NCBI RefSeq assembly: GCF_001570585.1
Contig: NZ_BBXF01000005.1
Location: 310,001 to 374,000, forward strand
Length of the DNA stretch: 64,000 bases
Reading direction: 5' to 3'
Source: Herbidospora daliensis
Lineage (GTDB): Bacteria > Actinomycetota > Actinomycetes > Streptosporangiales > Streptosporangiaceae
Shown piece after piece: positions 15,957 to 44,764 of the stretch; within the stretch, counting starts at the first letter, position 1, and every line of letters begins with the position of its first letter. The position numbers and the translations under genes are program-made. The notes under the pieces were generated by a model. That model worked only from the letters and a program-made list of their open reading frames with translations. It was not told where the DNA came from and ran no database searches.

Positions 15957-15997
15957 ATTCAAAACATTCTTTGAATACTTTAGAATTATATAGTCAT
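15957..15997 (-). promoter_or_regulatory. Stacked palindromes, site B plus ATTCAAA repeat
   Basis: ACTTTAGAATTATATAGT (15977-15994) matches the shared palindrome. Directly adjoining it is a perfect inverted repeat ATTCAAA-N6-TTTGAAT (15957-15976). In gene direction ATGACT-N17-TCAAAG could be the promoter, so both repeats cover the core promoter of the MFS gene. The region overlaps the 3' end of the UbiB-kinase gene. Confidence 0.6.
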
Positions 15998-17236
15998 ATT
16001 CTCCGGGGCTTCCGACGCTGTCAAGGCCCCCGTAAGGAGGCCTTGCATCACGTAGGGAGCCGCCTCGATCTGGAAATCCATCAGCGGATGAAGCCGCCGC
16101 ACCGTTCCCTCCAGGGCCAGCAGGCACAGCAGCGGGAACACGAATTCGGGTTCGGCGAAAACGGCGTGGCCGCGCTGCAGGTCGAAGAGCCGGACCGCGA
16201 ACGGCCCCAGCTCGAAGTCCTGCGCGACCGCCCCGGAACTGCGATTCACCAGGTCGGCGACCTCACGCTGGAACCCGGCCACGTCGGCGCCCTCGGCCAC
16301 GCCGCGCGCGCTGGCCAGCAGAATGCGCGCGCAGAACTCACCGTCGCCCTTGATCATGCCGCCGAAGAATCGCGTGAAGCTGGTCCGCGCCATTTCGCTG
16401 AGCGGGAACATGAATCCGGCGTCGAGGATGACGACCTCGCCGCCGGGACGGATGTAGGCGTTTCCCTGGTGCAGGTCGACGTGAATGAATCCGCGCACGA
16501 ACAGCATGTGATAAACAGCGCGAACCAGCGTGGTCACGCCGCGTTCCGTCGATTCGGGGTCGCCGGGCTCCTTGGTCAGCCCTTCGGCGAACGTCATCGT
16601 GATGACGCCGCCGGCGGTCAGTTCGTCGACGGGCTCGGGGACGACCACGCCGTCCACGTCCGCGAGGTCGGCGCGCAGCCGATGGAGGTACCGCGTCTCC
16701 TGCGCGAAGTCGAGCTGACCTCGCAGTGCCTCACCCAACTGGCCGACGATGTCGGTCATCGGCAGCCGGGCCAGGCGGGGAACACGCGCGGCGAGCCGGG
16801 CGAAGCCCGAGACGATCGCGGTGTCGGCGGCGAAGCGGCGGATCACGTCCGGCCGCCTGACCTTGACCGCGAGGTCACGGCCCTGCCACGTCATCCGGTA
16901 GACGCACGCGATCGACCCGCTGGCGATGGGCGGCCGGGCCAGGGCCGCGAGCATCTCCGACGGCGGATCCGCGAAGGCCTGCCGGGCGGCGAGCAGGGCG
17001 TGCCTCGACGGCATCGGCTCGACCTTGTCGTGCAGGCGGCCGAGCTCGGCGGCCAGGGTCTCCCCCACGACGTCGACCCGGGTCGCCAGCAGCTGGCCCG
17101 CCTTGAGGAAGGCGCCGCCGAGCCGTTCGAGCAGCCGGGCGACCTCGGCGGCCCTGGTCGGCCGCCGCCAGGCGACCAGGGCCAGCCCGATCAGCACGTG
17201 GAAACCCACCTGGACGAGGCGGATGGCGACCGTCAT
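15986..17236 (-). CDS. ABC1/UbiB (AarF)-family atypical kinase
   Basis: A 416-aa protein with the ADCK/UbiB signatures: KxGQ motif in FLKAGQLLATR, Ala-rich loop PPIASGSIACVYR, catalytic Lys in LAVKVRRP, HVDLHQGN and LDAGF. Members bind ATP and support isoprenoid/quinone or lipid metabolism at the membrane. Its ATG overlaps the preceding unknown gene by 4 bp. Last gene of a four-gene operon driven from site C. Confidence 0.9.
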   Translation of the reverse strand: MTVAIRLVQVGFHVLIGLALVAWRRPTRAAEVARLLERLGGAFLKAGQLLATRVDVVGETLAAELGRLHDKVEPMPSRHALLAARQAFADPPSEMLAALARPPIASGSIACVYRMTWQGRDLAVKVRRPDVIRRFAADTAIVSGFARLAARVPRLARLPMTDIVGQLGEALRGQLDFAQETRYLHRLRADLADVDGVVVPEPVDELTAGGVITMTFAEGLTKEPGDPESTERGVTTLVRAVYHMLFVRGFIHVDLHQGNAYIRPGGEVVILDAGFMFPLSEMARTSFTRFFGGMIKGDGEFCARILLASARGVAEGADVAGFQREVADLVNRSSGAVAQDFELGPFAVRLFDLQRGHAVFAEPEFVFPLLCLLALEGTVRRLHPLMDFQIEAAPYVMQGLLTGALTASEAPENMTI

Positions 17237-17949
17237 CGCCGCGCCTCCGCCCCGGCCAGGGCGTTCTCGACCGCCTCACGCAGTGTTTCGGGGCTGTCGT
17301 CGAAGTCCTCGCAGGCCAGCGGCACGGCCGGGCCGCTGCGGGTGAAGTCGGTCCGGTGGCCGCTGTCGAGCCGCGACACCCGCACCCGACGGGGCAGCCA
17401 GTCCTCGGCCGGGCCGCCCAGCTCCAGGGCCTCCCACCGGCGGATCGCTTCCCCGCGCTGCTCCACGACCCGGTCGACGACCACGCCGGTCCCGGGCACG
17501 AAGCACTCCCGCACCACCAGGGCGTCCAGTCGGGCCGGACCTCGGTAGACGCGGGTGCCCGTGCCCGGCGCTCCGGAGCCGGAGAGCTGAAGCACGGGAT
17601 GAGGCCACGCCATCAGGTCGACGTAGCCGATGTCGGTGAGGGGCAGGCAGTCGAAGGCCAGCCGGTCGACGACCTGGATGGGCCTGCGCATGGTCGGCAG
17701 GTAGGTGCTGATCCGGCACTCACCGGCGTCGCGCTCCTCCTCCATCCAGACGTAGGTGCCGAACAGCACATCGGGTTTGATCACGAAGATCGCGGTCACC
17801 GCGCGTTCCGGCAGGGCGGAGAAGCGGCGCGCGAACAGGTACCGCATCGGGTTGTTGCCGATGGCGGCCTCGACACCGAAGGCATAGGACGCGAGCCGGC
17901 CCGCGCGGAAATTCGCCCGAGCCGGCCCGGCAACACGCACGTCATCCAT
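17233..17949 (-). CDS. Unrecognised protein, 238 aa
   Basis: No family recognised. No signal peptide or membrane segment. Sequence is mixed alpha/beta with motifs YLFARRFSALPERAVTAIFV and LTDIGYVDLMAWPHPVLQL; the middle (YVDLMAWPHP) faintly recalls outer-membrane lipoprotein-sorting proteins of the LolA-like fold, which is uncertain. Starts 12 bp after the preceding stop and overlaps the UbiB kinase start, so it probably acts with the kinase. Confidence 0.75.
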   Translation of the reverse strand: MDDVRVAGPARANFRAGRLASYAFGVEAAIGNNPMRYLFARRFSALPERAVTAIFVIKPDVLFGTYVWMEEERDAGECRISTYLPTMRRPIQVVDRLAFDCLPLTDIGYVDLMAWPHPVLQLSGSGAPGTGTRVYRGPARLDALVVRECFVPGTGVVVDRVVEQRGEAIRRWEALELGGPAEDWLPRRVRVSRLDSGHRTDFTRSGPAVPLACEDFDDSPETLREAVENALAGAEARR

Positions 17950-17961
17950 CGCTGAGAGTGC

Positions 17962-18693
17962 CTACGCCAGCAGTCGTGCCAGCTCGGCGGGGATCACCGC
18001 GCTGGCGATCGGGACGTGGTGCAGGAGGTTCCCGATCTCGATGTCGGCGGCCAGAAGCTCACCGACCTGACGGCCTTCGCTGTCGTACAGCGCGTAGTGC
18101 TTGTTCGTTCGCGACACGTCCCCGATCGGGGGGACCATCGCGACCCGCGACTCCAGACGGACCACCTGGTCGCCCGTGTCGACGGTCGTGCCGAGCTGCT
18201 CTACCTCGAACCGAGGATAGATCATGGTGATACAGTCCTTGATGGGCATCGGTGTCCCATCGTCCGGGGTCGGACTCGGCTTGACCCGCGCCCCTTCCGA
18301 CTTGCCAGGCGTGTTCGACACCTTGACCTGGCCGAAGAGCTCGCTGTGCCCCGTCACCTGAAGCGACAGGAACTGGGCCGTGATCGTGGCGCTGGCCCAG
18401 TTCAGCTCGCCGGCGGCGTGCGGGTCGTGGCGACGGTAGATCGCCATGCCGTGGAGGTCGACGATGTCCTCACCGAGACCGTCGATGCGCACGTGGATGC
18501 GCTCGCGGACGATGAACGTCTCCAGAGCCGACGGCGTCAGCGTGTAAGGGCGGATGGGGTAGAGGTTCCCCGGCCCTCCCCACGCGGAGTCGTGGCCCCG
18601 GACGACCTCCGCCGGAGAGAGGGTCGCGGGGTCGATGTCCGCCGCGACGCCCCTCTCCAGGAGTTGTCTGAGGATTCCCTGTGGTTCGCTCAC
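17962..18693 (-). CDS. Unrecognised protein, 243 aa
   Basis: No family recognised. Beta-rich, soluble, no signal; repeated short strands such as ERIHVRIDGLGEDIVDLHG and SATITAQFLSLQVTGHSELFG suggest a beta-barrel or jelly-roll. GTG 18693 follows AAAGG. Second gene of the operon beginning at 19189; the proteins on either side are also of unknown family. Confidence 0.72.
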   Translation of the reverse strand: MSEPQGILRQLLERGVAADIDPATLSPAEVVRGHDSAWGGPGNLYPIRPYTLTPSALETFIVRERIHVRIDGLGEDIVDLHGMAIYRRHDPHAAGELNWASATITAQFLSLQVTGHSELFGQVKVSNTPGKSEGARVKPSPTPDDGTPMPIKDCITMIYPRFEVEQLGTTVDTGDQVVRLESRVAMVPPIGDVSRTNKHYALYDSEGRQVGELLAADIEIGNLLHHVPIASAVIPAELARLLA

Positions 18694-18745: not shown

Positions 18746-19189
18746 TCAGTTGTCGAGGGACGCCATCAGGGCGTCGAGCGAATCGATGACATGCGCGAAG
18801 TCCACGGTCCGCTCGCGGAGGCGGGACTTGTCGACCGTCTGGTCGCCAAGCTCGACCGCGAGCACCTCGATCAGCCGATCGAGGTTGTTGTAGGCGACGC
18901 TCACCGGGAAGTGGGCCAGCGGCGTCTCGTGCCGGGGGTCGGCGGGCGGGCCGCCGGACTCCAGCAGTCCGGTCGATCCGCTCTGCTCCCGCCAGGCGCG
19001 CTCCACCGTCACGTCGTACTGGTGGAAGGTCCCGTAGTAGTGCGGCTTCCAGAGTTCGCGGAGCTCGTTGGCGCTGATGCGCCGCTCGAGGTAGTCCACC
19101 GCGGCGGGGACGAACACCTCGCGGTACTCCTTGAGCAGAGGACCGACGTCCGGCGAAGTCGTCGGCAGCGGACTGTCAGCGATGGTCAT
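18746..19189 (-). CDS. Unrecognised protein, 147 aa
   Basis: No family recognised. Helical, acidic, soluble: LLKEYREVFVPAAVDYLERR and VAYNNLDRLIEVLAVELGD. ATG 19189 follows GGGAGACGAC; a TTG 12 bp upstream is less likely. First gene of the four-gene UbiB operon, transcribed away from tRNA-Sec, with palindromic site C 52-73 bp upstream. Confidence 0.72.
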   Translation of the reverse strand: MTIADSPLPTTSPDVGPLLKEYREVFVPAAVDYLERRISANELRELWKPHYYGTFHQYDVTVERAWREQSGSTGLLESGGPPADPRHETPLAHFPVSVAYNNLDRLIEVLAVELGDQTVDKSRLRERTVDFAHVIDSLDALMASLDN

Positions 19190-19233
19190 GTCGTCTCCCA
19201 ACCAGGGCTCGGTAGGTCTGAACGTCGATCCTC

Positions 19234-19390: not shown

Positions 19391-19483
19391 GGAGGCGTTG
19401 GGTGCCTGGTGGCCCTCCCGGTCTACAAAACCGATGGGGCGGCGTTCGGCGTCGCCGGCGGGTTCGATTCCCGTTCGCCTCCG
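19391..19483 (+). tRNA. selC: tRNA-Sec with anticodon ACA
   Basis: A 93-nt tRNA with the Sec architecture. The acceptor stem GGAGGCG pairs with CGCCTCC, discriminator G, no encoded CCA; the T-arm is GCGGG-TTCGATT-CCCGT; an extra arm of ~7 bp (GGCGGCG/CGTCGCC) follows the anticodon arm; the D-stem is extended. It lies 45 bp before selB. The anticodon arm is CGGT-CTACAAA-ACCG, so positions 34-36 are A-C-A. E. coli selC has CTTCAAA (UCA) in the same place. An ACA anticodon pairs with UGU (Cys), not UGA. The identification as tRNA-Sec is strong; the anticodon is read directly from sequence. Confidence 0.93.
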
Positions 19484-19528
19484 CTTTTCGCACCACCGCG
19501 GGATTCTTCAGGGTGAGGAGTGGCGCGC

Positions 19529-21286
19529 ATGCACGTAGTGGCGACCGCCGGTCACGTCGACCACGGCAAGTCGACCCTCGTCCGCGCTCTCACCGGAATG
19601 GAGCCCGACCGCTGGGCCGAGGAACGCCGGCGGGGCCTGACGATCGACCTGGGGTTCGCCTGGCGCACCATGCCCTCGGGACGCTCGCTCGCCTTCGTCG
19701 ACGTTCCCGGCCACGAGCGGTTCGTGACCAACATGATGGCCGGCATCGGCCCGGTGCCCGCCGTACTCATCGTGGTCGCCGCCGACGAGGGGTGGATGCC
19801 GCAGTCGGCCGAGCACCTGGCCGTGATCGACGCGCTCGGCGTACACCACGGACTGCTGGTGGTGACCCGGTCGGACCGAGGCGACGCCGAACTGGCCATC
19901 GAGGAGGCACGGCTGGAGCTGGCCGACTCCTCCTTGGCCGACGTGCCCGCCGTGGCCGTCAGCAGCATCACCGGCGAAGGTATCGACGACCTGGTGACCG
20001 CTCTCGACTCGCTGGTGGCATCGCTGCCCGCCCCCGACGACGCGGCGCCGGTCCGGTTGTGGATCGACCGCGCGTTCACCATCAAGGGCATGGGCACCGT
20101 CGTCACCGGCACCCTGCCGGCCGGGACCGTGAACGCCGGAGACGAACTCCAGCTCAGCCCGTCAGGACGGATCGTGAAGATCCGCGGCATGGAGTCGCTG
20201 AAGCGGAAGGTCGAGACGGTGACCGGCGTGGCCCGGGTCGCCCTCAACCTCAAAGGCGTCGACCTGGACGAGTGCCGGCGCGGGATGGCCCTGATCACCC
20301 CCGGCCGGTGGAGCGACACCGACACCCTCGACGTGCGGCTGCGGGCCGGGACCTCCGACCTGCTACCGCGCGAGTCGCTGCTGCACGTCGGCTCGGCGTC
20401 GGTGAGCGTCCGGATCCGCCGCCTGGGCGAGACGACCGCGCGGCTCACCCTCGAACATCCGTTGCCGATGCACGTCGGCGACCGGGTGATCCTCCGCGAC
20501 CCGGGCTCGCGCCGGGTGACCGGCTTGACCGTGCTCGATGTTCGGCCGCCGCCTTTCCACGGCCGGGGCGCGGCGGCGCGGGCGGCCGACGAACTGGCCG
20601 AGTGGCCCGACCCGCCGACCGCCCACCACCTGCTGGCCCGCCACCATTATCTGAAGGTGGCCGACTTCGGTCTCATGGGCCTCCCCCCGGTCGGCCGGAC
20701 GGCCGACGGCGACTGGCGGGTGGACCTCGGCTGGCGGGTCAGCCAGTCTCAGCGCCTCAGCGCCCTCACGAAGGACCACGCCCTGGCCAACCCCCTCGCT
20801 CCGACTCTTCCCGTCGAGGTGGCCCGGCAGCTGCTCGGGCTCCCCGACCGGCGGCTCGTGGAGGCGCTGGTCCGGCCGCCGCTGCGGGTCGAGGGAGGGC
20901 GGATCCACCGGCCCGCCGACCGGCCCAAGCTCCCCGAGGCGATCGCCGCCGCCGTGCGTCGTCTGGAGCGGGAGCTGGAGTCGACGCCGTTCCAGGCGCC
21001 GGAGGCGGGCCGGCTCGCCCAGCTCGGGCTCGACTCCCGGGCCGCCATCGCCGCGCACAAGGTCGGGGCCGTCCTGCGGCTGGCCGAAGGCGTCGTCCTC
21101 CCCCTGACGGCCGAGCCGCGAGCGGTGGAGATCCTCGGCGACCTGCCGCAGCCGTTCACCGCGAGCGAGGCCCGCAGCGCCCTGGGCACCAGCCGCCGCG
21201 TGGTGATCCCCTTGCTGGAGTATCTGGACGAGCGGGGCCACACGATGCGGGTCGACAACACGAGCCGGCGGATGCGCCCCAACTGA
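19529..21286 (+). CDS. selB: Selenocysteine-specific elongation factor SelB
   Basis: A 585-aa GTPase: G1 GHVDHGKST at residues ~8-16, G3 DVPGHERFV, then EF-Tu-like domains II/III and a C-terminal winged-helix region (~res 380-585, e.g. SRAAIAAHKVGAVLRLAEGV) that binds SECIS hairpins. Length matches bacterial SelB. ATG 19529 has GAGGAG eight bases upstream; the GTG at 19520 overlaps that ribosome site and is less likely. It delivers Sec-tRNA-Sec to recoded codons. Cotranscribed with selC. Confidence 0.95.
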   Translation: MHVVATAGHVDHGKSTLVRALTGMEPDRWAEERRRGLTIDLGFAWRTMPSGRSLAFVDVPGHERFVTNMMAGIGPVPAVLIVVAADEGWMPQSAEHLAVIDALGVHHGLLVVTRSDRGDAELAIEEARLELADSSLADVPAVAVSSITGEGIDDLVTALDSLVASLPAPDDAAPVRLWIDRAFTIKGMGTVVTGTLPAGTVNAGDELQLSPSGRIVKIRGMESLKRKVETVTGVARVALNLKGVDLDECRRGMALITPGRWSDTDTLDVRLRAGTSDLLPRESLLHVGSASVSVRIRRLGETTARLTLEHPLPMHVGDRVILRDPGSRRVTGLTVLDVRPPPFHGRGAAARAADELAEWPDPPTAHHLLARHHYLKVADFGLMGLPPVGRTADGDWRVDLGWRVSQSQRLSALTKDHALANPLAPTLPVEVARQLLGLPDRRLVEALVRPPLRVEGGRIHRPADRPKLPEAIAAAVRRLERELESTPFQAPEAGRLAQLGLDSRAAIAAHKVGAVLRLAEGVVLPLTAEPRAVEILGDLPQPFTASEARSALGTSRRVVIPLLEYLDERGHTMRVDNTSRRMRPN

Positions 21287-23412: not shown

Positions 23413-24810
23413 TTACGGCAGCGCCGCCAGTAGCGCCTTCTCCAGAACGTCGTCCTCCTCGGGCGCCACCGTACGCAGGTCGACCAGCACCCGTCCCCGT
23501 TCGGCCCGCACGATCACCGGCGTCTCTCCGGCGCGCAGCGCCCCCATGACGGCCGTCTCGCCCGACGGCCCGCAGCTGAGCTCGACCAGCACCGACGGAA
23601 GCCGCTCGACGGGCAGGCTGCCGCCGCCCACCATGCCCGCGCCGTCCCGGACCCGGGCCCGCCGCCCGATCGAGCGCGCCAGCCGGTCGGCCCGGCGGGT
23701 GAGCTCCTCGATCGGCGCGTCGAGCATGCGCCAGACCGGCAGCTCGCCTCGGCGTCCGCCCAGATGGGACAACAACGTGGCTTCCAGAGCGGCCAGGGTG
23801 AGCTTGTCGATGCGCACGGCACGGGCGATCGGATGCCGGGACAGCCGCTGCACCATCGTTTCGTCGCCGACGACGATTCCGGCCTGGGGGCCGCCGAACA
23901 GCTTGTCGCCGGAGAAGACCGTCAGGTCGGCCCCGGCCGCCATGCTCTCCCGCAGCGTCGGCTCGTCGCCCAAATCGCCGGTGAGCAGGCCCGATCCCAA
24001 ATCGTGCAGGAGCGGGAGGCCCGACTCGTGAGCGGCGGCGACCAGGGCGGGCAGCGGCGGCGCGGCCGTGAAGCCTTCGATGCGGTAGTTCGACGGGTGC
24101 ACCACGAGGATCATCGCGGTGCGGTCGGTGATGGCGTCGACGTAGTCGGCCAGGTGGGTGCGGTTGGTCGAGCCGACCTCGACGAGCCGCGCTCCGGCGG
24201 CCTCCATGATGGACGGGATGCGGAACTCGCCGCCGATCTCCACCAGTTCGCCGCGCGAGACGATGACCTCCCGGTCGCGGGCGAAGGCGCCGAGCGCCAG
24301 GAAGAGCGCCGCGGCGGCGTTGTTGACCGCCAGGGCGCCGGGTGCGCCGCTCAGCTCGCGCAGCAGGGTGTTCACGGTTGCGCCGCGTTTGCCTCGGCCG
24401 CCGGTGGCCAGGTCGAACTCGACCGTGGAGTAGCCGGCGGCGGCGTTGACGGCGGCCCGGGCCGCCTCCGACAAGGGGGCCCGGCCGAGGTTGGTGTGCA
24501 GCACGACGCCGGTGGCGTTGATGACGGCCCTGACCCGGCCCGCGTCCAGCGTGGCCAGCGCGTCGGCCACCTTGCCGGCGATCTCGTCGGGGGACGGCAC
24601 GGTCCCGCCTCCGCCCACCGCACAGCGGGCCTCGTCGATCACCAGGCGGACCTTCTCGGTCACCAGCGGGCGGCCCCATGTGGCTGCCAGCTCGCCCATC
24701 AGCGGGAGCGAGAGGACGGCGTCAATCTTCGGCAGCGCGCGGCGGGGATCGGCGGGAGGAGTAGCGCGTGGCACTTCAACAGGTGCGGCCGGGCCGGAAT
24801 CCATGATCAT
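23413..24810 (-). CDS. selA: L-seryl-tRNA(Sec) selenium transferase SelA
   Basis: A 465-aa PLP enzyme converting Ser-tRNA-Sec to Sec-tRNA-Sec with selenophosphate. SelA features are present: N-terminal VINATGVVLHTNLGRAPLS, PLP lysine K303 in SGDKLFGGPQAG, and the GSTNRTHLADY region. ATG 24810 follows GAGGGG and starts 9 bp after the selD stop, so selD-selA are one operon. Confidence 0.96.
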   Translation of the reverse strand: MIMDSGPAAPVEVPRATPPADPRRALPKIDAVLSLPLMGELAATWGRPLVTEKVRLVIDEARCAVGGGGTVPSPDEIAGKVADALATLDAGRVRAVINATGVVLHTNLGRAPLSEAARAAVNAAAGYSTVEFDLATGGRGKRGATVNTLLRELSGAPGALAVNNAAAALFLALGAFARDREVIVSRGELVEIGGEFRIPSIMEAAGARLVEVGSTNRTHLADYVDAITDRTAMILVVHPSNYRIEGFTAAPPLPALVAAAHESGLPLLHDLGSGLLTGDLGDEPTLRESMAAGADLTVFSGDKLFGGPQAGIVVGDETMVQRLSRHPIARAVRIDKLTLAALEATLLSHLGGRRGELPVWRMLDAPIEELTRRADRLARSIGRRARVRDGAGMVGGGSLPVERLPSVLVELSCGPSGETAVMGALRAGETPVIVRAERGRVLVDLRTVAPEEDDVLEKALLAALP

Positions 24811-24819
24811 CGTGACCCC

Positions 24820-25881
24820 TCAAGCGCCTGCATGGACGGAGATGTGACCGGGCCGTCCCGCGACCGCCTGGCCGATGACGGCCGTGGACCGGTCGTGTTC
24901 ACGCAGGCGGTCGACCAGCCCGGCCGCCGACGGCGGCACAGCGAGCAGCAGGCCGCCTGAGGTCTGCGCGTCGTGCAGCAGGATCGCGACCTCCTCGTCG
25001 ACCGACACCGCGACGTCCACCCAGTCGGCCAGGAAACTCATGTTCGCCTTGGTCCCGCCGGGCACGAAACCCTTGGCCGCCAGCTCACGCGCGTCGGGCA
25101 GCAGCGGCACGCGGTCGGCGTCGACCGTCGCGGCCAGGCCGCTGGCGCTGAGCATGCGCCGCAGGTGCCCGAGCAGCCCGAACCCGGTCACGTCGGTCGC
25201 GGCCCGCACTCTGGCGGCCACCGCGGCGCGGGCGGCGTTCGCGTTGAGCGTCGTCATCGAGGCGACGGCCTCGGCGAGGGTGGCGGGGTCGGCGGCGTCC
25301 TGTTTGAGGGCGGTGACGATGACGCCGGTGCCCAATGGTTTGGTCAGCACGAGCAGGTCGCCGGGGCGCACCTGGTCGATCGTCATCAGGTGGTCGGGGT
25401 CGGCCAGGCCGATGACGGCCATGCCGTATTTCGGGACGGGGTCGGCGATGGTGTGGCCGCCGACCACGGCGCAGCCGCCCTCGGCGGCCTTGGTGGCGGC
25501 GCCGCGCATGACGTCGGCCAGCAGGTCGAGCGGCAGGCCGTCGCCCGGCCAGGCGGCCAGGTTGAGCGCGGCGACGGGGCGGCCGCCCATGGCGTACACG
25601 TCGGACAGGGCGTTGGCCGCGGCGACGCGGCCCCAGTCGTAGGGGTCGTCGAGGACGGGGGTGAAGAAGTCGGTGGTCAAGATGAGTGCCTGGCCGTCGC
25701 CCAGGCGCAGCACCGCTGCGTCGTCGCCCTCGGGCAGGCCCACCAGCAGGTCGTCGGCGGCTTGGGCGCCGAACCCGTTGAGGCTGGTCATGAGCGTTTC
25801 GAGTGACGCCTGCGGCAGTTTGCAGGCGCATCCGGCGCCGGGTGACAACGTGGTCAGTCGGACGGTGGTGTTTTCCCTCAT
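24820..25881 (-). CDS. selD: Selenide, water dikinase (selenophosphate synthetase) SelD
   Basis: A 353-aa enzyme making selenophosphate from selenide and ATP. The catalytic N-terminal loop is GAGCACKLP with Cys18 (TGC) where some SelD proteins have Sec, followed by LVGLPEGDDAAVLRLGDGQA and TTDFFTPVLDDP. Lies between an AhpD-like gene (85 bp upstream) and selA. All Cys codons are TGC, so it is not itself a UGU target. Confidence 0.96.
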   Translation of the reverse strand: MRENTTVRLTTLSPGAGCACKLPQASLETLMTSLNGFGAQAADDLLVGLPEGDDAAVLRLGDGQALILTTDFFTPVLDDPYDWGRVAAANALSDVYAMGGRPVAALNLAAWPGDGLPLDLLADVMRGAATKAAEGGCAVVGGHTIADPVPKYGMAVIGLADPDHLMTIDQVRPGDLLVLTKPLGTGVIVTALKQDAADPATLAEAVASMTTLNANAARAAVAARVRAATDVTGFGLLGHLRRMLSASGLAATVDADRVPLLPDARELAAKGFVPGGTKANMSFLADWVDVAVSVDEEVAILLHDAQTSGGLLLAVPPSAAGLVDRLREHDRSTAVIGQAVAGRPGHISVHAGA

Positions 25882-25965: not shown

Positions 25966-26517
25966 TCAGTGGCCGGTGGCGCACATCCGGTAGCCGTCGT
26001 TGATGATCATCTGGGCCATGCCGGCGTAGGCTCGCGGGTCATCCGGGACGATGGCCGCCAGCCCGTCGCAGTAGCGGTTGAACATGCAGAACGCCGCCGA
26101 GATGAGCACCGAGTCGTGGATCTCGGTGTCGGTGGCGCCGGCCTGCCGGGCCGCGTCGACCAGCTCGGCGGTGACGGCGTGGCCGCCTTCGACGGTCGCG
26201 CCGGCGATCTTGATCAGGGCGCGGAGCTTGGGCGAGATCGGGGCGCTGTCGACGTCGTCGAGGACCTTGTCGACCAGGGCCCGGCCGCCGTCGATCTGGG
26301 CGGCGCTGACCTCCGAGTGGGTGGAGCTGCAGAACTTGCAGTGGTTGAGCACCGACACGTAGGTCGCGATGAGCTCGCGGTCCCCACGCCCCAGCGAGTG
26401 GGGGCTGCGCAGCAGCGTCTCGGCGAGCTCACCGAGGGGGCGCCCCGTCTCCGGACGGTACTGGAACAGACCGGGCGTGCCGGGGGCAAGCTCGGGGGAC
26501 ATGGCGATGTGCGGCAT
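25966..26517 (-). CDS. AhpD-like alkylhydroperoxidase (CxxC)
   Basis: A 183-aa CMD/AhpD protein with the full redox motif NHCKFCSSTHSEV (Cys60, Cys63, His), so peroxide or thiol oxidoreductase activity is plausible. ATG 26517 follows GAGGAGAG. It heads an operon with selD and selA, transcribed from a promoter covered by palindromic site D. AhpD-like families include natural selenoproteins, but both Cys here are TGC with no obvious SECIS. Its presence with selDA suggests redox control or a Sec-linked redox task. Confidence 0.88.
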   Translation of the reverse strand: MPHIAMSPELAPGTPGLFQYRPETGRPLGELAETLLRSPHSLGRGDRELIATYVSVLNHCKFCSSTHSEVSAAQIDGGRALVDKVLDDVDSAPISPKLRALIKIAGATVEGGHAVTAELVDAARQAGATDTEIHDSVLISAAFCMFNRYCDGLAAIVPDDPRAYAGMAQMIINDGYRMCATGH

Positions 26518-36165: not shown

Positions 36166-36602
36166 CGCCGGCTTCCCGGCACGGCGTACGCGTCCAGCGC
36201 CTGGTAGAGCTCCTGGGGGACGTCGATGGCGATGAGGTCGCCGTCGACGCGCTGCATGCAGGCGACCGTCTGCGCGCCGCGGGCGACGAGCTGGCCGGGG
36301 CCGTTGCCGACGCGGAAGTAGTCGAAGCCCATGACGATCCGGTTGAGGTCGATGCTGCGCAGCGTCATCCGGATCGACACCAGGTCGAAGGCCTGCAACT
36401 CGGCGAAGTACTCGCACGAGCACGACACGGTGACCAGCGCGAGGTCGGAGTAGAGGTTGCGCAGCACTCCAGGCGCGTGGTCGGCCAGGAAGCGTTCCCG
36501 GCAGGCGCCCTGCCAGGCGACGTAGTTGGCGAAGTAGACGTTGCCGACGAGGTTGGTGTCGGCGAAGGTCACCAGGTGTTCGTAGGCGAAGTGGGGGTTC
36601 AC
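36162..36602 (-). CDS. Enediyne-type hot-dog thioesterase (E10-like)
   Basis: A 146-aa hot-dog thioesterase: YEHLVTFADTNLVGNVYFAN, RMTLRSIDLNRIVMGFDYF. This is the pattern of CalE7/DynE7-type thioesterases that release the polyene from the enediyne synthase. GTG 36602 overlaps the PksE stop (GTGA), so synthase and thioesterase are translationally coupled. Confidence 0.92.
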   Translation of the reverse strand: MNPHFAYEHLVTFADTNLVGNVYFANYVAWQGACRERFLADHAPGVLRNLYSDLALVTVSCSCEYFAELQAFDLVSIRMTLRSIDLNRIVMGFDYFRVGNGPGQLVARGAQTVACMQRVDGDLIAIDVPQELYQALDAYAVPGSRR

Positions 36603-39600
36603 GGTGATCCCTTCACAAGGACGGCCACGGCCACCGGCCGAGGATCACCGCCGATGCGCACGATCGCCGAGGCGATCCGGTGCGGCCCGCCGCGCAGCAG
36701 AACCCATCCCTGCTCGAAGACCCCTGAGACGGTGAGCGGCACCCCGCCGGTGTCGCCCGCCGAGACCAGACAGGAACGGACCGTGCGCAACCGCGCGTGC
36801 GTGAAGGCGGCGGGCTCGCCGGTGAGCCGTGTGATCGGATGGGGCTCCCCTGGCGGCTCCTCCTCGTCGAGGGCCACGTGGTCCAGGGCGCAGCCGAGCG
36901 TGGCCGCGCCGGTGACCTCCAGGTCGAGGCCGGGGCCTGTCTCGACCTTGACGTTGACGTCGGGGAGCAGGCTCTCCAGCCCGCGTTCGACCAGGGGGCC
37001 GAGCAGGACGGCGGGCCAGCCGCCTTCGGGTTCGAGCGGGCCGATGTCGCGTAGCCGCAACCGGTGCCAGCTCAGCACGGGCCGGTCCTGGTCGTCGTGG
37101 ACCGAGACGTCGTAGACGTGCTCGGCTCCGTCGCGGTGATGTTCTGTCGCCGACAGGCGCAGTTCCGCCGGGTGGGGGCCGGGGTCGTGCACGGTGATCG
37201 CCTCGCAGCCGACCGGCAGCAGGCGACGGCCGGGCACGCAGACCTGGAGCGCGTGGATGGTGGCGTCGGTGAAGGTGGGGTCGCCCAATTGCGTGCCCTC
37301 CGGAGACCAGCGCGGCCCGGCGTCCACGACGGCGACGCAGGCGGTGGCCTCCAGGTGGTCGTAACGGCGTACCCGCTGGAAGGCGGGGCCGTGGAAGAAG
37401 ATCGGGCCGTAGAGGTCGGCGCCGTCGTGCGGCGGCAGTTCCGAGACCCGGTGCAGAGGCTCGATCGGCTCCCGGGTGGTTCCGGCGACGGCGGTGAAGT
37501 GCTCGGCGGCGTAGCCGCTCTCGTCGCTGCGCAGCACCACGCGGACCCCGTCCGGGCCGGCCAGCGCGCAGACGCGGACCGTTCGCACCCCGTCGTCCGG
37601 GACGATGACCGGCCGGTCGAAGCGGGCCGTACCGAGGGACGTGACCGGGTGCCCGGTGAGCGTCGCGGCGGCCTCGGCCATCAGCTCCAGCGCGACCACG
37701 GCGGGCAGCACGGCCAGCCCGTCGATGAGGTGGTCCCTCAGCTGGGGGTGGGTGTCCAGCGCCAGGTCGGCCTCGGCGACCAGTTCGACGCCGGGGACGT
37801 GCAGCCGGGTCCGGGTGAGCAACGATCCCGCCGGGTCGCCGGGACGGTCGAGTTGCGGCAGCCGCCCGGTCGCCAGGAGGGTGGAATTATCGGCCGTGAG
37901 CACCTCATGGAGCAGTTCCACGCCTCGATCGGCCGGGAGGGGGTCGACCCCCGCCCGGCGCAGGCCGTCGAGCACGTCGAGGCGCTCGCCCATGCCGGCG
38001 CCCGACCAGGCCGTCCAGTCGACGTTGCGAACCCGGCAGTGCGGCACCCGCCGCGCCAGGACGCGGGCGAGTTCGCGCATGCGGCCGTTGGCCAGGGCGT
38101 AGTGGGCTTCGCCGGGGAGGCCGAACCGGCCGATGACCGATCCGAAGGTGACCACATGGCGCAGCCGGGACAGGTCGACGGCGGCCAGGACGTTCTTCAG
38201 GCCGTGGTACTTGGCGGCGGCGTGCCGGGCGAGGTCGTCGTCGGTGAGCTCGGCGAAGCGTTTGGGTTCGTTGACGCCCCCGCTGTGGATGATCGCGGTG
38301 ACCGGTTCGCCGATCGCCTCCGCCACGGCCACCGGATCGGCGAGGTCGGCCTGGAGATAGGCGTACCGGATGCGGTTCTCGGTGAGGAGTGCCAGGTTGG
38401 CGCGTAACTCCTCGTCGGCGGACGGGTCGGCGCGCCCGAGCAGCAGCAGGCGGCAGCCGTAGGCGTCGCCGACCGCGAGGGCGGAGCGGAACCCGATGCC
38501 CTTCCCGCCGCCCGTCACCAGCACCACGTCATCCGGGGTCAGCGGCGTTCCGCCGGTTCCGGCCCCGGCGGGGCGGAAGACCGGGACGCCGACACCGCCA
38601 TCGGCGACTACCTCGACAGGGCCGTCGAACGGGGCCGCGAGCACGGTCGCGACCGATTCGGCGTCGGCGGCGGAGATCCAGCGCAGCCACCGGTCGGGGT
38701 GTTCGGCGCGCACCGAGGCGAGGAAGCCCGAGGCGGTGTCGCCGTGGTCGACGACCGTGAGCGGCGATCCGGTACGGGCGGCCTCGACCAGCGCCGCGAC
38801 GTCCTCGTCCGAAGGGTCCTCGGGGAGGAAGACGAGTTCGGCGTCGCCTCCCGACTGGAGCGAGGGTTCCAAGGCGTCCCGCAACGGGCCCCGGCCGCTG
38901 ATCCGCCAGGCGTGGGGACGGTCGGCGACCGCCAGTTCGACGGGCTCGGTGTGCTCGGTGAGCAGCCGGTGCCAGCTCGCGACCCCGGCGAGCGGCGGCT
39001 CGGTCTCGTCGGCGGTGGGCAGCGCGGCGATCAGCGCGGCGAGTTCGGCCACCGACACGTCGGCCGACATCAGCGGCTCGGCGGGCACAGCCCGGCCCAG
39101 CACGGCGGCCGCCTCCCCCGCGAGCTGCACGACCCGCAGCGAGTTCAGGTGCAGGTCGCTGAGCAGCCGGTCGTCCTGGCCGACGGCGTCGACGGGAAGC
39201 TCCAGCAGCCCGGCCACCAGTTCCCGCACGGTCGCCGGCACGTCACCGGACGCCGTCCGAGTCTCCGGGACGGCCTCGGCGGCGATCGGCTCGTATCCCG
39301 CCTCCAGATGCGGCGCCTGTTCGCACGGGTTCTCCAGGAACAGCGGCTCCCGCCACAGGTCGAAGGGCCGGTGCGAACGATGGGCGGACAGCGGCCGGGG
39401 GTCGGTGAGCAGGCCGAGCGCGTAGAGCGCGGCGGCGGCCTGCAGCGGCGCGGCGGCCGGCTCGCCTCCGACGTCCATCGCGACCACGGGCCGCGGCGTC
39501 AGCGTGGTGGCCAGCGTGGTGAGGGAGTGTCCCGGACCGACCTCGATCAGCAGGTCGCAGTCCTCGGCCAGGGAGACGACCGCGTCGGCGAACTTCACCG

Positions 39601-41986
39601 GCGCGGTGAGCTGGGTGGTCAGCAGCTCCGCCAGGTCGGTCTGCGAGGTCAGCAAGGTGCCGAGCACGGTGGAGTGCACGCTGCCGCGTACCGGACCGAA
39701 GTTCAGGCCGCGCAGGTGTTCGGCCAGCACCGGCTCGGCCTCGGTGAAGGCCGGTGAGTGGAAGGCGTGACTGACCCGCAGCGGCCGCGCGGTGATCCCC
39801 CGCGTCCGGCAACGTGTCAGCAGCGCGGCGAGCTCCGCGTCGGGACCGGCGACCACGTGGGAGGTGCCGTGTTCGGCGGCGACCACCAGGCCGGTGCCCG
39901 CGATCAGCGCGTCGGCAAGGTCCCGGTCGGCCATGACCGACACCATCCCGGTGCCGGGGGCACCGTGGGTTTTCATGATCTTGCCGCGGGCGGCGGCCAG
40001 GTCGACGGCCTGGTCCTCGGTGAGAGCGCCGGCCCAGTGCAGCGCGGTGATCTCCCCCAGGCTGTGGCCCACGGCGCCGTGGGCGGTGACGCCGAGCGAG
40101 GTCAGCCAGCGCAAACCGGCGATGGAGGCCCGCACCACCGACGGCTGCACCACGGCCGTGTCGACGGTGTCGTCGACGCCGTCGAAGTAGGCCGCCAGTT
40201 CGGGATCGAACCCGCCGAGCGCCCCGGGGCCGGCCGGGATGCCCGCGCCCTGGCCGGTGAACAGCAGACCAGCCCGGCCAGCCGGGCCGGCGCCCACCGC
40301 GCCGCCGGGGAAGACCGTGAAGCCCCCGTCGAGCGCGGCCAGCGCCCGCCGGGCCCGGTCACCGAGTTGCGCAGGATCGGCGGCGACCAGGGCGGCCCGG
40401 AAGGCGGGCCGGTCGGCGGGGAGGTGACTGGCGGCGAGGTCGGACAGTTCGCTCATCGCCATCGTCGCGGACGCGGCGACGGCCCGGTCGAGCACGCGGC
40501 GCAGTTCCTCGGGGCTGTCCGCTCCGAACAGGACGAGTTCGTGAGTCGGCGGACGCCGGGCGAGCACCTGCTCGCGCGGGGTCAGCGCCGCCCGCCGGGC
40601 GGAGGTGGCCGACTCCAGGACCAGATGGGTGTTGATGCCCCCGAACCCCATGGCGCTGACCCCAGCGCGCAGCGGTTCTCCGTCCGGCCACGATTCGGCC
40701 TCCGACAACACCCGCAGCGGCGCGCCCTCGGCCCGGAGGCCGGGGTGCGGGCTCTCGCAGCCCGTGGTGGGCGGGAGCACCTGCCGGTGCAGCGCCATGG
40801 CGGCCTTGAGCAGCCCGGCCAGCCCGGCGGCGGCCTTGGTGTGCCCGATGTTGGCCTTGATCGAGCCGAGCGCGGCCGGGATCGTGGTCCGCCTGCCGCG
40901 CTGCGCCTCGACGAGGGTGGCGATCTCCACGGCGTCGCCGACGGCGGTGCCGGTGCCGTGGCCCTCGAACAGGGCGACGTCCTCGGGGCCGTACCCGAGG
41001 CGTTCGTAGGCCCGCCGTACGGCGAGCACCTGGCCCGCCTGTTCCGGGCGGGTGATGCCGCCCCTGCCGTCGGAGGACACGCCCCAGTCGCGGATGAGCG
41101 CGAGCGGCGCCCGGCCTTCGGCCAGCGCGTCCTGCGCCCGCATCAAAACGACCATGCCGCAGCCCTCGCCGGGCCAGAACCCGGTCGGGTGCTCGTCGTA
41201 GATGCGCATGGCGTCGGTCGCGATCGCGCCCGTCCGGGCGAAGCCGACCAGTTCGAACGGGTCGAGGCTGAGATCGACGCCCCCGGCGATCACGACGTCG
41301 GCCGCGCCGGAACGCAGCGTGTTCCCCGCCGTGATGACCGACAGCAGGGACGAGGCGCAGGCGCCGTCAACGGTGTAGCCGCCGCCGTGGAAGTCGAAGT
41401 GGTTGCAGACGCGCCCCGCGATGGTGTTGGCCAGCCCGCCCGCCAGGCTCTCGTCGTTGGGCTCGGGGAAGGGCTGTTTGAAGCGGTGCTCGACGGTGGC
41501 CAGGAAGCGGGCCAGCTCGGGCGCCTCCCAGCCCTCCTCCGTCAGCGCCTGCTGCATCACCCTGCGGACGTAGGGCCAGCGCAGCCGCAGTCCGTTGGCG
41601 CGGCTGAACTCGCCGTTCATGGTATTGCCCACGACCACGCCGACCCGGTCGCGCTCCAGCCCGGCCCCGTCGGGGTATCCGGCGGACGCCAGCGCGTCGG
41701 CGGCCACCTCCAGGGCGAGCCAGTGGGTGGTGTCGGTGACCCGGTGGACCGGCCCCGGGATGCGGAACCGGGCCCGGTCGAAACTCCAGCCCTCCAGGAC
41801 GGCCGCGAATTTGGCGTAGGTGCCGTCGCGGTCGCCGGCGTAGTCGGCCAGGTTCAGCCGTCCCGGCGGGATGGGGCGGAAGGAGCGCCGCCGGGAGAGT
41901 ACCGACTCCCAGAGCTGGGCCGGGTCGTCGGCGCCGGGGTAGCGGCAGGCGGCGCCGACGATGGCGATGGTGGCGTGGTCGTACAC
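36599..41986 (-). CDS. pksE: Iterative type I enediyne-type polyketide synthase
   Basis: A 1795-aa megasynthase. KS: VDGACASSL with C210, HGTGTAVGD, NIGHTKAAAG. AT: GHSLGE with S642. ACP: LLSDLHLNSLRVVQ with S949. KR: VLVTGGGKGIGFRSA at ~1160. DH: DHLIDGLAVLP at ~1415. The last ~150 residues align with the built-in phosphopantetheinyl transferase, but the motif GCALDHVAL has Ala where the first metal-binding Asp is expected, so it may be weakened. This domain order is the hallmark of PksE. Product: a linear polyene precursor. Confidence 0.95.
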   Translation of the reverse strand: MYDHATIAIVGAACRYPGADDPAQLWESVLSRRRSFRPIPPGRLNLADYAGDRDGTYAKFAAVLEGWSFDRARFRIPGPVHRVTDTTHWLALEVAADALASAGYPDGAGLERDRVGVVVGNTMNGEFSRANGLRLRWPYVRRVMQQALTEEGWEAPELARFLATVEHRFKQPFPEPNDESLAGGLANTIAGRVCNHFDFHGGGYTVDGACASSLLSVITAGNTLRSGAADVVIAGGVDLSLDPFELVGFARTGAIATDAMRIYDEHPTGFWPGEGCGMVVLMRAQDALAEGRAPLALIRDWGVSSDGRGGITRPEQAGQVLAVRRAYERLGYGPEDVALFEGHGTGTAVGDAVEIATLVEAQRGRRTTIPAALGSIKANIGHTKAAAGLAGLLKAAMALHRQVLPPTTGCESPHPGLRAEGAPLRVLSEAESWPDGEPLRAGVSAMGFGGINTHLVLESATSARRAALTPREQVLARRPPTHELVLFGADSPEELRRVLDRAVAASATMAMSELSDLAASHLPADRPAFRAALVAADPAQLGDRARRALAALDGGFTVFPGGAVGAGPAGRAGLLFTGQGAGIPAGPGALGGFDPELAAYFDGVDDTVDTAVVQPSVVRASIAGLRWLTSLGVTAHGAVGHSLGEITALHWAGALTEDQAVDLAAARGKIMKTHGAPGTGMVSVMADRDLADALIAGTGLVVAAEHGTSHVVAGPDAELAALLTRCRTRGITARPLRVSHAFHSPAFTEAEPVLAEHLRGLNFGPVRGSVHSTVLGTLLTSQTDLAELLTTQLTAPVKFADAVVSLAEDCDLLIEVGPGHSLTTLATTLTPRPVVAMDVGGEPAAAPLQAAAALYALGLLTDPRPLSAHRSHRPFDLWREPLFLENPCEQAPHLEAGYEPIAAEAVPETRTASGDVPATVRELVAGLLELPVDAVGQDDRLLSDLHLNSLRVVQLAGEAAAVLGRAVPAEPLMSADVSVAELAALIAALPTADETEPPLAGVASWHRLLTEHTEPVELAVADRPHAWRISGRGPLRDALEPSLQSGGDAELVFLPEDPSDEDVAALVEAARTGSPLTVVDHGDTASGFLASVRAEHPDRWLRWISAADAESVATVLAAPFDGPVEVVADGGVGVPVFRPAGAGTGGTPLTPDDVVLVTGGGKGIGFRSALAVGDAYGCRLLLLGRADPSADEELRANLALLTENRIRYAYLQADLADPVAVAEAIGEPVTAIIHSGGVNEPKRFAELTDDDLARHAAAKYHGLKNVLAAVDLSRLRHVVTFGSVIGRFGLPGEAHYALANGRMRELARVLARRVPHCRVRNVDWTAWSGAGMGERLDVLDGLRRAGVDPLPADRGVELLHEVLTADNSTLLATGRLPQLDRPGDPAGSLLTRTRLHVPGVELVAEADLALDTHPQLRDHLIDGLAVLPAVVALELMAEAAATLTGHPVTSLGTARFDRPVIVPDDGVRTVRVCALAGPDGVRVVLRSDESGYAAEHFTAVAGTTREPIEPLHRVSELPPHDGADLYGPIFFHGPAFQRVRRYDHLEATACVAVVDAGPRWSPEGTQLGDPTFTDATIHALQVCVPGRRLLPVGCEAITVHDPGPHPAELRLSATEHHRDGAEHVYDVSVHDDQDRPVLSWHRLRLRDIGPLEPEGGWPAVLLGPLVERGLESLLPDVNVKVETGPGLDLEVTGAATLGCALDHVALDEEEPPGEPHPITRLTGEPAAFTHARLRTVRSCLVSAGDTGGVPLTVSGVFEQGWVLLRGGPHRIASAIVRIGGDPRPVAVAVLVKGSP

Positions 41987-41990
41987 GGGA

Positions 41991-42905
41991 TCACGTCCTG
42001 TTGGCGGCGGCGACGAGCTGGGGCGCGGGTTCCTCGGCGGGGGTGGCGGCGCGGGCGCGCAGCGAGATCACTCCGAGTGCCGCACCCCGCAGGGCGCACA
42101 CGATGACCAGGGCGAAGAACAGGCCGAAGGCGATGTGGACGTGCACCAGCAGCCCGTAGACCGCGGCCGTCGCGACGCCGAAGGCGACCTGGTTGGCGGG
42201 TTTGACCGGGGTCGTGCCCGGGTCGGTGATCATGTAGTTGGTGAACAGGATGAACGCGGTGCCGGTCATGACGGTCAGCGCGGTCGCCGTGGCCGTGCCG
42301 TCGATGCCGGTCCGGATCACCGCCTGGGCGGCGAAGCCGAGGACCCAGCCGAGGATGAGCGGGATCTTCTTGGTGAGCATGGCGTTGATGACCGTGCCGG
42401 AGATCAGGATGAACGCGGGCAGCACCCAGTCGAGCGGCCCGCTGATCCACTCGGTGAAATGGTAGGGAGGCGCGATGCTCACCCACGGGAACACGATCAG
42501 CACCACGACGATGCCGAAGTTCGACGGGTTGAGCACGTGCCGGAACTTGCCGTGGAGCCGGATCCGGATCAGGTACTTGGACGCGATCGCCACGATCACC
42601 GCGAAGATCACCGGGGCGATGCGGTCGTTGGCGTACAGGAGCATCGCGCAGGCCAGTCCGGTGATGTGGGCCGGCAGCAGGAAGGTGACCAGCCCCTTGA
42701 AGCCGCCGCCCCGGAACTTGGGCGTGCGCCCGGTCGCCGCGGCGTCCAGCCACTCCAGCCCGATCTCCAGGATGTAGGCGGCGGCCAGCGCCGCCAGCGG
42801 CGTGACGTAGGCCTGCTCGAAGCCGAGCACGGCGTGGCCGAGGATGTTGAACGCCGTGATCGAGATCGCGAAGCGGCGCAGCGCGATGACGCGGGGGTCT
42901 TTCAT
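41991..42905 (-). CDS. unbL: Enediyne-cassette membrane protein (UnbL-like)
   Basis: A 304-aa integral membrane protein with ~10 helices, related to the RnfD/NqrB fold: EIGLEWLDAAATGRTPKFRG, RLHGKFRHVLNPSNFGIVVV, FTNYMITDPGTTPVKPANQV. This is one of the three conserved genes of unknown role that accompany PksE. ATG 42905 overlaps the UnbV-like stop; PksE follows after 4 bp. Confidence 0.88.
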   Translation of the reverse strand: MKDPRVIALRRFAISITAFNILGHAVLGFEQAYVTPLAALAAAYILEIGLEWLDAAATGRTPKFRGGGFKGLVTFLLPAHITGLACAMLLYANDRIAPVIFAVIVAIASKYLIRIRLHGKFRHVLNPSNFGIVVVLIVFPWVSIAPPYHFTEWISGPLDWVLPAFILISGTVINAMLTKKIPLILGWVLGFAAQAVIRTGIDGTATATALTVMTGTAFILFTNYMITDPGTTPVKPANQVAFGVATAAVYGLLVHVHIAFGLFFALVIVCALRGAALGVISLRARAATPAEEPAPQLVAAANRT

Positions 42906-44764
42906 CGGGTCTCCTTGACGGTTCCGTCGTTGCCGAGCAGGACCGTGTGCCATCCGGAGGTCAGCCGCGTGTCGGCGCTGTGCCGGACTCCACAGGCGTC
43001 GCGCCAGGTGAGGGTGACGTCGGCGGCCTGGCCGGAGAGCCCGAACAGCAACTCGGGCGAGGAGACCCCGGCGTGACCTGCGGCCGGGTACACCTGGCCG
43101 CTGGTGACCCCGGCCGCGCCGGAGCGCAGCCGCACCGCGGCGCCGATCGCCGGTGTCGCGGTGAGGGTGCCCTGGCAGGTGGCCGGGCGGGTCAGCGTGA
43201 GCCCGAGATGGGGCAGGTCGGTGGTCCTGGTGTTGCGGTAGAAGTGCGACTGCCGCCACTGGTTGCCGATGGCGTAGTCGAGGCGTCCGTCGTGGTCGAC
43301 GTCGGCCAGCGCGATGCCGCGGGTGGGGCCGCCGTCGTCCAGGCCGAGCCGGCCGCCCAGGTCGTGGAAGCGGCCGTCCGCGCCGCGGACGAAGAAGCGG
43401 TCGGGGTCGCTGCCCGACAGGTCGTCGGTGATCTGGAAACGCGGCCACATGGCCGGATCCACCAGCAGGGCGTCGTTGGTCATGGCCAGTTCCTGCAGCT
43501 CCGGCCAGCGGTTGGTCTCGCCCCTGATGAAGCCGGTGGCCTGGACGATCTGCAGGTCGCCCGTTCCGGCGAAGTCGCCCATCTTCACGTCCCAGCCCCA
43601 GCCGGAGCGGGAGATGCCGATCTGTTCGCTGTGGTCGTCGTAGGAGGCGGTGCCCTCGGCCTTGAAGGCGACCCCGTCGGTGCTGAGCCAGGCGAAGTTG
43701 CTCTCGTGCAGGCCGTAGTTCTGGGTGATGTTGCTGACCACCATGTCGGGCACCTCGTCGGCGTTGAGGTCGCCGAACGCGACGCCCATGCCCTTGAAGG
43801 AGTCCCACCCGAGGGCCTTGGACTTGGGGGTGGTGAAGTGGCGCACCCCTTCCATGAGCTCGAAGCGCGGGGCGCCCGGTGTGGAGATGTTGCGCAGCAG
43901 GCGGTCGGGGCCGAAGTCGTTGGCGACGTACAGGTCGGGGCGGCCGTCGGCGTCGAGGTCCTGGGCGCCCATGGCGAGGGTCCAGCCGTCGCCCATTTCG
44001 GCGTCGAACGCCCCGGCGGCCTCGTCGAAGCGGCCTTGGCCCTGAGCGAGCAGGATCCGGTTGCGTCCGGCGTTGTAGGCGCGCGACATCGAGTCCTGCA
44101 TCTGGATCCCGAACTGCACCGCCGTCGGGTCGAGGATGCGCGCGCCGTCGGGGAAGTAGTTGCCGATCGCGACGTCGGTCCGGCCGTCGCCGTCGAAATC
44201 GGCCAGCGAGATGGCGTTGGTGTTCCAGACCTCGTACGGCCGGATCATCTCCGTCGGGGTGAAACCGGTGCCGGAGTTGAGGTGCAGGATGGGGCTGCGA
44301 CCCCAGAAGTAGACGAGCAGGTCGGTGCGGCCGTCGTCGTTGTAGTCGCCGGGCACGCAGCCCATCGGCGCCATGGTGGCGTTGTAGGGCAGCGGGCCCG
44401 CCGTCAGGACGCGGGCGGGGTACCTACTGCCGGTTCCCGGCACCGGCGACAGACGGACCGAGTCGTCGCGCGGGTCGACCAGGCAGACGTCGTCGGGACG
44501 GCCGTTGGCGTCGGTGTCGGCCAGCGCGACCGCGCCTCCGAGCGAGGAGATCCAGTGATCGATCCTCTTGTAGGCGGGCGCCACGACGCGGATGGAGCGT
44601 TCCGTCGCCGCTTCGTTCAGCGGGAGCCGCTGGAAGGCGAAGCGGCCGGCCAGGGCGTCGGCCGTCGCGGGTGCGGCGGCGGGCTGGCGGGCCACCTGCC
44701 AGCCGGCCACGATCAGGACGACCGCGACGACCTGTACCAGGCGTCTTTTGATCGGGGACGTCAC
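42902..44764 (-). CDS. unbV: Enediyne-cassette FG-GAP/CRTAC1-like protein (UnbV-like)
   Basis: A 620-aa protein with one N-terminal signal/anchor helix (VQVVAVVLIVAGWQ) and repeated Ca-binding FG-GAP/VCBS units (DFDGDGRTDVAIGNYFPDGA, DVDHDGRLDYAIGNQW), then an ASPIC/UnbV domain at the C-terminus. A beta-propeller facing outside is expected. One of the three conserved companions of PksE. GTG 44764 overlaps the UnbU-like stop. Confidence 0.9.
   Translation of the reverse strand: MTSPIKRRLVQVVAVVLIVAGWQVARQPAAAPATADALAGRFAFQRLPLNEAATERSIRVVAPAYKRIDHWISSLGGAVALADTDANGRPDDVCLVDPRDDSVRLSPVPGTGSRYPARVLTAGPLPYNATMAPMGCVPGDYNDDGRTDLLVYFWGRSPILHLNSGTGFTPTEMIRPYEVWNTNAISLADFDGDGRTDVAIGNYFPDGARILDPTAVQFGIQMQDSMSRAYNAGRNRILLAQGQGRFDEAAGAFDAEMGDGWTLAMGAQDLDADGRPDLYVANDFGPDRLLRNISTPGAPRFELMEGVRHFTTPKSKALGWDSFKGMGVAFGDLNADEVPDMVVSNITQNYGLHESNFAWLSTDGVAFKAEGTASYDDHSEQIGISRSGWGWDVKMGDFAGTGDLQIVQATGFIRGETNRWPELQELAMTNDALLVDPAMWPRFQITDDLSGSDPDRFFVRGADGRFHDLGGRLGLDDGGPTRGIALADVDHDGRLDYAIGNQWRQSHFYRNTRTTDLPHLGLTLTRPATCQGTLTATPAIGAAVRLRSGAAGVTSGQVYPAAGHAGVSSPELLFGLSGQAADVTLTWRDACGVRHSADTRLTSGWHTVLLGNDGTVKETR

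Follow-up and report, generated by a model that had tools for sequence, protein, structure and literature searches.

A tRNA-Sec gene with the anticodon ACA

A 64-kb stretch of the Herbidospora daliensis genome (G000, C5:310001-374000), termed the window below, contains a tRNA-Sec gene with the anticodon ACA. The question raised by this locus is whether this tRNA directs selenocysteine (Sec) to a UGU codon and, if so, in which gene. The tRNA gene and its anticodon are located as follows.

19391..19484, + strand: selC2, tRNA-Sec with the anticodon ACA (sequence, ARAGORN, Rfam)
19425..19427, + strand: anticodon ACA (A34 C35 A36) of selC2 (sequence, ARAGORN)

The anticodon loop, CTACAAA, is located at 19423-19429. 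ARAGORN reports 19391-19484(+) as 'tRNA-Cys (aca)', which is its sole tRNA call in the window. The Rfam tRNA-Sec model RF01852 matches 19391-19482 over its full length with 66.8 bits (gathering 47), and a sequence pattern for selC2 gives one match in the window and none in 100 shuffles. Because selC2 has ACA instead of UCA, it is classed as a variant tRNA-Sec; published tRNA-Sec variants also depart from UCA, according to passages of three papers (PMC10778597, PMC8124441, PMC11415595). The same ACA gene recurs in H. galbida, H. yilanensis, the Streptosporangiaceae genomes G499, G655 and G675, and Planomonospora parontospora, indicating that the ACA anticodon is not a read error. The preliminary description of this DNA, which placed a tRNA-Sec(ACA) at 19391 and recommended a check with a Sec-tRNA covariance model, is therefore borne out by ARAGORN, by RF01852 and by the sequence itself. 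It also placed selB downstream, and a selB gene does start 37 bp (GTG) or 46 bp (ATG) past the Rfam end of selC2. Genes for the remaining Sec machinery follow.

19520..21286, + strand: selB2, Sec-specific elongation factor, 588 aa (Pfam, TIGR00475)
23413..24810, - strand: selA2, selenocysteine synthase (PF03841, 402 bits)
24820..25881, - strand: selD2, selenophosphate synthetase (TIGR00476, above cut-off)

SelB2 scores 304.8 bits against TIGR00475 selB (cut-off 242.25) and contains the winged-helix domain SelB-wing_3. selB2, selA2 and selD2 co-occur with the A34 tRNA across the loci, the 8 kb of Planomonospora covering selB2 alone.

The UGU codon of a DUF6073/DynF-family gene

The candidate target gene is located on the strand opposite to selC2, one gene away.

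17962..18693, - strand: 243-aa protein of the DUF6073/DynF family, putative selenoprotein with UGU as its Sec codon (PF19550, DynF 6UBL)
18232..18234, - strand: TGT of residue 154, the proposed Sec codon and the sole Cys codon of the DUF6073 gene

This protein scores 299.4 bits against PF19550 (cut-off 25). It is aligned with DynF (6UBL) with an E value of 2.6e-5, Cys being aligned with Cys, and with an E value of 0.021 in the profile comparison. In 34 other genes of the window, cysteine is encoded by 126 TGC and 11 TGT codons.

PF19550 is found in 22 of 341 Streptosporangiaceae genomes, 12 of which have a protein of the window's type, with the PIKD motif. Position 154 of these 12 proteins is encoded by TGT in six and by TAT in one (G421), which are termed Sec types, and by TGC in five, which are termed Cys types. 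When all 22 genomes are compared, the position is Cys in 20, with TAT in G421 and GGC in the distant G633 as the exceptions. The DUF6073 gene of P. parontospora, which contains TGT, provides an eighth Sec-type locus. A class-wide sample of 394 genomes contains PF19550 in four (G000, G002, G593 and, outside the family, G1053). In the DynF-like clade, one in-frame TGA is present within the PF19550 match of each of G593, G629, G607 and G613; that of G593 looks like an upstream stop, because it is located before the first ATG.

A pattern for tRNA-Sec with A34, which is restricted to A34 variants of one fixed loop, matches seven of the 341 family genomes, and these are exactly the seven with a Sec-type DUF6073 gene. 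DUF6073 is not found in the four Herbidospora genomes without the ACA tRNA. With Planomonospora included, the codon matches the anticodon at all eight loci, as TGT/ACA at seven and as TAT/AUA at one. The tRNA-Sec(ACA) gene is located within about 1 kb of the DUF6073 gene at every TGT locus. Likewise, a tRNA-Sec with the anticodon AUA is located about 1 kb from the TAT gene on the same contig of G421, so far the one draft genome with this pair (83% complete, 840 contigs). In the five TGC genomes, ARAGORN detects no tRNA-Sec in the 20 kb around DUF6073, and neither selA nor selB is found around it. One of these Cys types, G693, has selD 9.8 kb from DUF6073, which is counted against the Sec reading.

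As a guard against a hand-picked gene, all 11 TGT codons in 27 cluster genes were compared with six other genomes, namely five ACA genomes and G421, although several of the other ten codons cannot be aligned in some of them. Of these 11 codons, that of residue 154 is the sole one that stays TGT throughout the five other ACA genomes. Likewise, residue 154 alone is a Tyr codon among 32 Cys columns aligned in G421. Residue 154 of the DUF6073 protein is very probably made with selenium, and UGU elsewhere is expected to be read as cysteine. The proposal of the preliminary description that UGU specifies Sec if followed by a SECIS is very probably correct for the gene at 17962-18693.

A SECIS-like hairpin downstream of the codon

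A bacterial SECIS of the E. coli fdhF type is a hairpin directly after the codon, with a bulged U and a loop that contains GGU. A hairpin of this kind is located 3' of the proposed Sec codon.

18197..18224, - strand: proposed SECIS hairpin with a bulged U, a CCUC stem and a GGUUC loop (fold, comparison of Sec types)

In the Sec types, the stem of this hairpin is CCUC/GAGG, the bulged base is located at position 18 and the loop, GGUUC, at positions 23-27. It resembles that of E. coli fdhF in the bulged U and in a GGU loop at nearly the same distance, and the system differs from that of fdhF in the codon, which is UGU or UAU here.

When the paired positions are counted, 95.5% of 44 cells are formed in the Sec types (six sequences, four of them distinct), as compared with 36-52% when the structure is slid along the sequence. 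The corresponding value for the five Cys-type sequences is 56.4% of 55, as compared with 22-47% when slid. The hairpin is taken from the Herbidospora fold, a choice that favours it. The hairpin of the five Cys types is broken. Single-sequence folding of the Nonomuraea wenchangensis stretch selects a different structure. Six hairpin regions out of the eight differ by at most one base. No covariation is seen, since no pair is changed on both sides among the four distinct rows, and synonymous conservation 3' of the codon is not significant (5/8 versus 44/127, p 0.11). When the genome is searched with a model of the hairpin region, a single place is found, the residue-154 site, with 150 of 5117 first-look candidates scored; the model depends mainly on sequence, and a SECIS of another kind would escape it.

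An ordinary UCA set in the same genome

The preliminary description regarded ACA as standing in place of UCA. This part does not hold, because the genome (8.52 Mb) retains a normal tRNA-Sec(UCA) at C1:380607-380698 (76.9 bits; 150 of 1967 first-look candidates scored) with selA, selB and selD of its own and a nearby UGA gene. This tRNA gene is located directly 3' of its selA and selB, and selD is located on its other side. The UCA tRNA-Sec is present in six of seven Herbidospora genomes, and ACA is present in addition in three of the seven. In Nonomuraea wenchangensis, only the ACA gene is seen.

The UGA gene near the UCA set is membrane-protein-like, with a TGA in frame inside the motif GFSLSGSV-U-SLNSADLL. 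It is found in seven of 15 loci screened around UCA genes, namely that of G520 and those of the six UCA-bearing Herbidospora genomes, and the hairpin 3' of its TGA is identical or almost identical across them. It represents a candidate UGA selenoprotein (loci L009:6936(-), L112, L113, L114, L115, L120 and L125). Pieces of this gene match no Pfam family and give one weak NCBIfam match, far below the cut-off. Formate dehydrogenase was rejected as a UGA target: none of the eight PF00384 matches in the genome contains an in-frame stop.

Two selenocysteine sets are therefore predicted in one Herbidospora genome, because the UCA set and the UGA gene coexist with the ACA set. A second tRNA-Sec(UCA) together with a UGA gene had been named beforehand as a finding that would refute recoding of UGU; both are present, yet recoding of UGU is not refuted by them, because the ACA set is additional. 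In H. yilanensis, the 8 kb around the UCA set (L115, C49:47000-55000) contains selA, selC(UCA), selD and the UGA gene and no selB. SelB2 might serve both codes in this organism, and a separation of the two SelBs is thus presumptive.

The enediyne-type cluster around the Sec set

The Sec set is located within a gene cluster with the following further members.

15986..17236, - strand: ABC1/UbiB-like kinase
17233..17949, - strand: unassigned protein, 238 aa, no Pfam/NCBIfam match
18746..19201, - strand: unassigned protein, 151 aa, between DUF6073 and selC2, no Pfam/NCBIfam match
25966..26517, - strand: AhpD-like (CMD) protein, CxxC with TGC codons
36162..36602, - strand: enediyne-type hotdog thioesterase (PDB matches)
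36599..41986, - strand: enediyne-type iterative PKS, KS-AT-ACP-KR-DH (domain order, DynE8 match)
42902..45373, - strand: UnbV/ASPIC FG-GAP protein (family match)

The six best PDB matches of the thioesterase are all thioesterases, including DynE7, CalE7 and an ACP-polyene thioesterase, with E values from 1.5e-47 to 7.6e-36, and the next other family follows at 1.2e-5. The PKS matches the solved piece of DynE8 with an E value of 2.7e-60, and longer modular PKS chains score higher. With both a PKS of this domain order and a hotdog thioesterase, the cluster is assigned to the enediyne type by sequence comparison. A relative of the PKS is located within 25 kb of DUF6073 in all seven Sec-type genomes examined, the window included, and UnbV is present in the five of them in which the stretch extends to it or it was looked for (H. 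galbida and H. yilanensis left out). Among the Cys types, a PKS is located within 30 kb of DUF6073 in four of five, and not in the stretch of G712.

The DUF6073 and AhpD-like proteins share 99.5-100% identity with their counterparts in H. galbida and H. yilanensis, and other neighbours mostly share 84-99%. The AhpD-like protein was rejected as a UGU target, because all its Cys codons are TGC.

Origin of the ACA/AUA set

A tree of 16 SelBs places those encoded beside ACA or AUA tRNAs, eight in number, in one group (95/93), with the AUA row beside an ACA row (94/90). The UCA-linked SelB of G489 adjoins this group. The Sec types are grouped weakly in the DUF6073 tree (66/48). A path of the tRNA from UCA to ACA to AUA, by one base per step, with the codon following from UGA to UGU to UAU, fits these results; the UGA stage of the residue-154 codon is presumed, and none is seen. 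The SelB of G489 belongs to a second UCA tRNA-Sec set in that genome (G489:C8, L117) and is 60% identical to SelB2. This set possibly resembles the ancestor of the ACA set.

Proposed mechanism and alternatives

It is highly likely that the window contains a complete second selenocysteine system for one gene of an enediyne-type cluster, by which Sec would be incorporated at UGU-154 of the DUF6073 protein. According to this proposal, tRNA-Sec(ACA) would be charged with serine, and SelA2 would convert the Ser-tRNA to Sec-tRNA with selenophosphate from SelD2. SelB2 would then bring Sec-tRNA(ACA) solely to the site followed by its SECIS hairpin, UGU-154 of DUF6073, where it would compete with the normal Cys-tRNA, and UGU at other sites would be decoded by the usual tRNA, as Cys. 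The same system would operate in G421 with a UAU codon and the AUA tRNA. Failed recoding would yield a full-length protein with Cys (Tyr in G421), unlike that of UGA, so that the choice of UGU or UAU would avoid truncation. The family-wide Cys position suggests that a selenol there may perform covalent or redox chemistry on the ligand of the barrel. It is also reasonably probable that the enediyne cluster possesses its own expanded code, in which a private tRNA-Sec, SelB, SelA and SelD would provide a catalytic Sec in a DynF-type barrel acting on a polyene or enediyne intermediate, beside the ordinary UGA code and with the codon stepping through UGA, UGU and UAU.

The agreement between codon and anticodon could also arise if the cluster has been inherited as a block, in which case TGT-154 and ACA would be linked by descent and the tRNA would not decode the codon. 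The single group formed by the SelB2 rows and the near identity of most hairpin regions are compatible with such inheritance, but the codon and the anticodon of G421 change together and are still matched, and no other TGT codon of the 11 compared is retained by every ACA genome. Moreover, A34 matched to the residue-154 codon is unexpected by drift, because normal bacterial tRNA-Cys and tRNA-Tyr have G34. Block inheritance is therefore very unlikely to account for the match. If A34 is converted to inosine, the tRNA would read UGC (and UGA) as well, and may serve, for example, the AhpD-like CxxC protein at 25966-26517, the gene of which adjoins selD2 and is highly conserved in the two ACA Herbidospora relatives. 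NCBIfam does list AhpD-related (seleno)proteins. This conversion is unlikely: the codon ends in U at all eight loci, as unmodified A34 would require, and the sequence-heavy hairpin model, which could miss another SECIS, gives no second genomic site among the 150 of 5117 candidates scored; inosine is not needed, since unmodified A34 pairs exactly with UGU and UAU.

It would be most surprising if the tRNA remained charged with Ser or Cys and caused targeted mistranslation only. The name tRNA-Cys given by ARAGORN agrees with such a role, and a passage of PMC11415595 describes the delivery by SelB of a tRNA-Cys that resembles tRNA-Sec, but selC2 keeps the G after the acceptor stem that is common to the UCA tRNA-Sec genes, and it co-occurs with selA2 and selD2 as well as selB2.

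Comparison with known systems

Recoding of sense codons to Sec by variant tRNA-Sec is already published. According to passages of three papers (PMC10778597, PMC8124441, PMC11415595), in which Mukai et al. 2016 is cited for this recoding, natural anticodon variants of tRNA-Sec recode UGU/UGC and ten sense codons; Aeromonas salmonicida recodes UGU or UGC, and the reviews disagree on which. The present system is similar to those described there in that a changed anticodon of tRNA-Sec would recode a sense codon, but differs from them in that the genome retains its UCA set as well, and in the DynF-family target, the enediyne-type cluster and the presence of UGU/ACA and UAU/AUA forms. The target, the codon-anticodon switch, the two Sec codes per genome and the biosynthetic cluster with its own recoding kit seem to be new. 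No literature was found on DUF6073 or on Herbidospora with selenocysteine, and no title or abstract opening found for enediyne with selenocysteine describes such a system.

According to passages of PMC8725005, DynF (6UBL) is a palmitate-binding barrel whose role is unconfirmed, and sungeidine biosynthesis depends on Sgd15, the DynF orthologue, as an essential protein; neither 'cysteine' nor 'Cys' occurs in the main text of that paper. By sequence, the DUF6073 protein is a relative of DynF and shares the aligned Cys position, but DynF has Cys there, whereas in the window UGU is combined with a hairpin that resembles a SECIS and with a Sec system of its own. If the proposal is correct, the DynF/DUF6073 family would contain a selenoprotein of natural-product biosynthesis, one cell would harbour a natural pair of parallel Sec codes, a codon-anticodon switch would have been caught between relatives, and the gene set would be a source of tRNA, SelB and SECIS parts for recoding. 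Sense-codon selenoproteins are easily missed in annotation, because ordinary translation gives Cys or Tyr.

A genome-wide scan gives 15 stretches, four from Streptosporangiaceae and 11 others. Ten of these 11 were scanned with Rfam and two (L036 and L041) reach the tRNA-Sec threshold; L038 was scanned with ARAGORN only. The L041 and L036 stretches, which give no tblastn match to selA, selB or selD of the window, carry ACA tRNA-Sec genes outside Actinobacteria, in a Planctomycetota MAG (L041, 75.4 bits in Rfam) and in Desulfallas sp. (L036, 47.2 bits).
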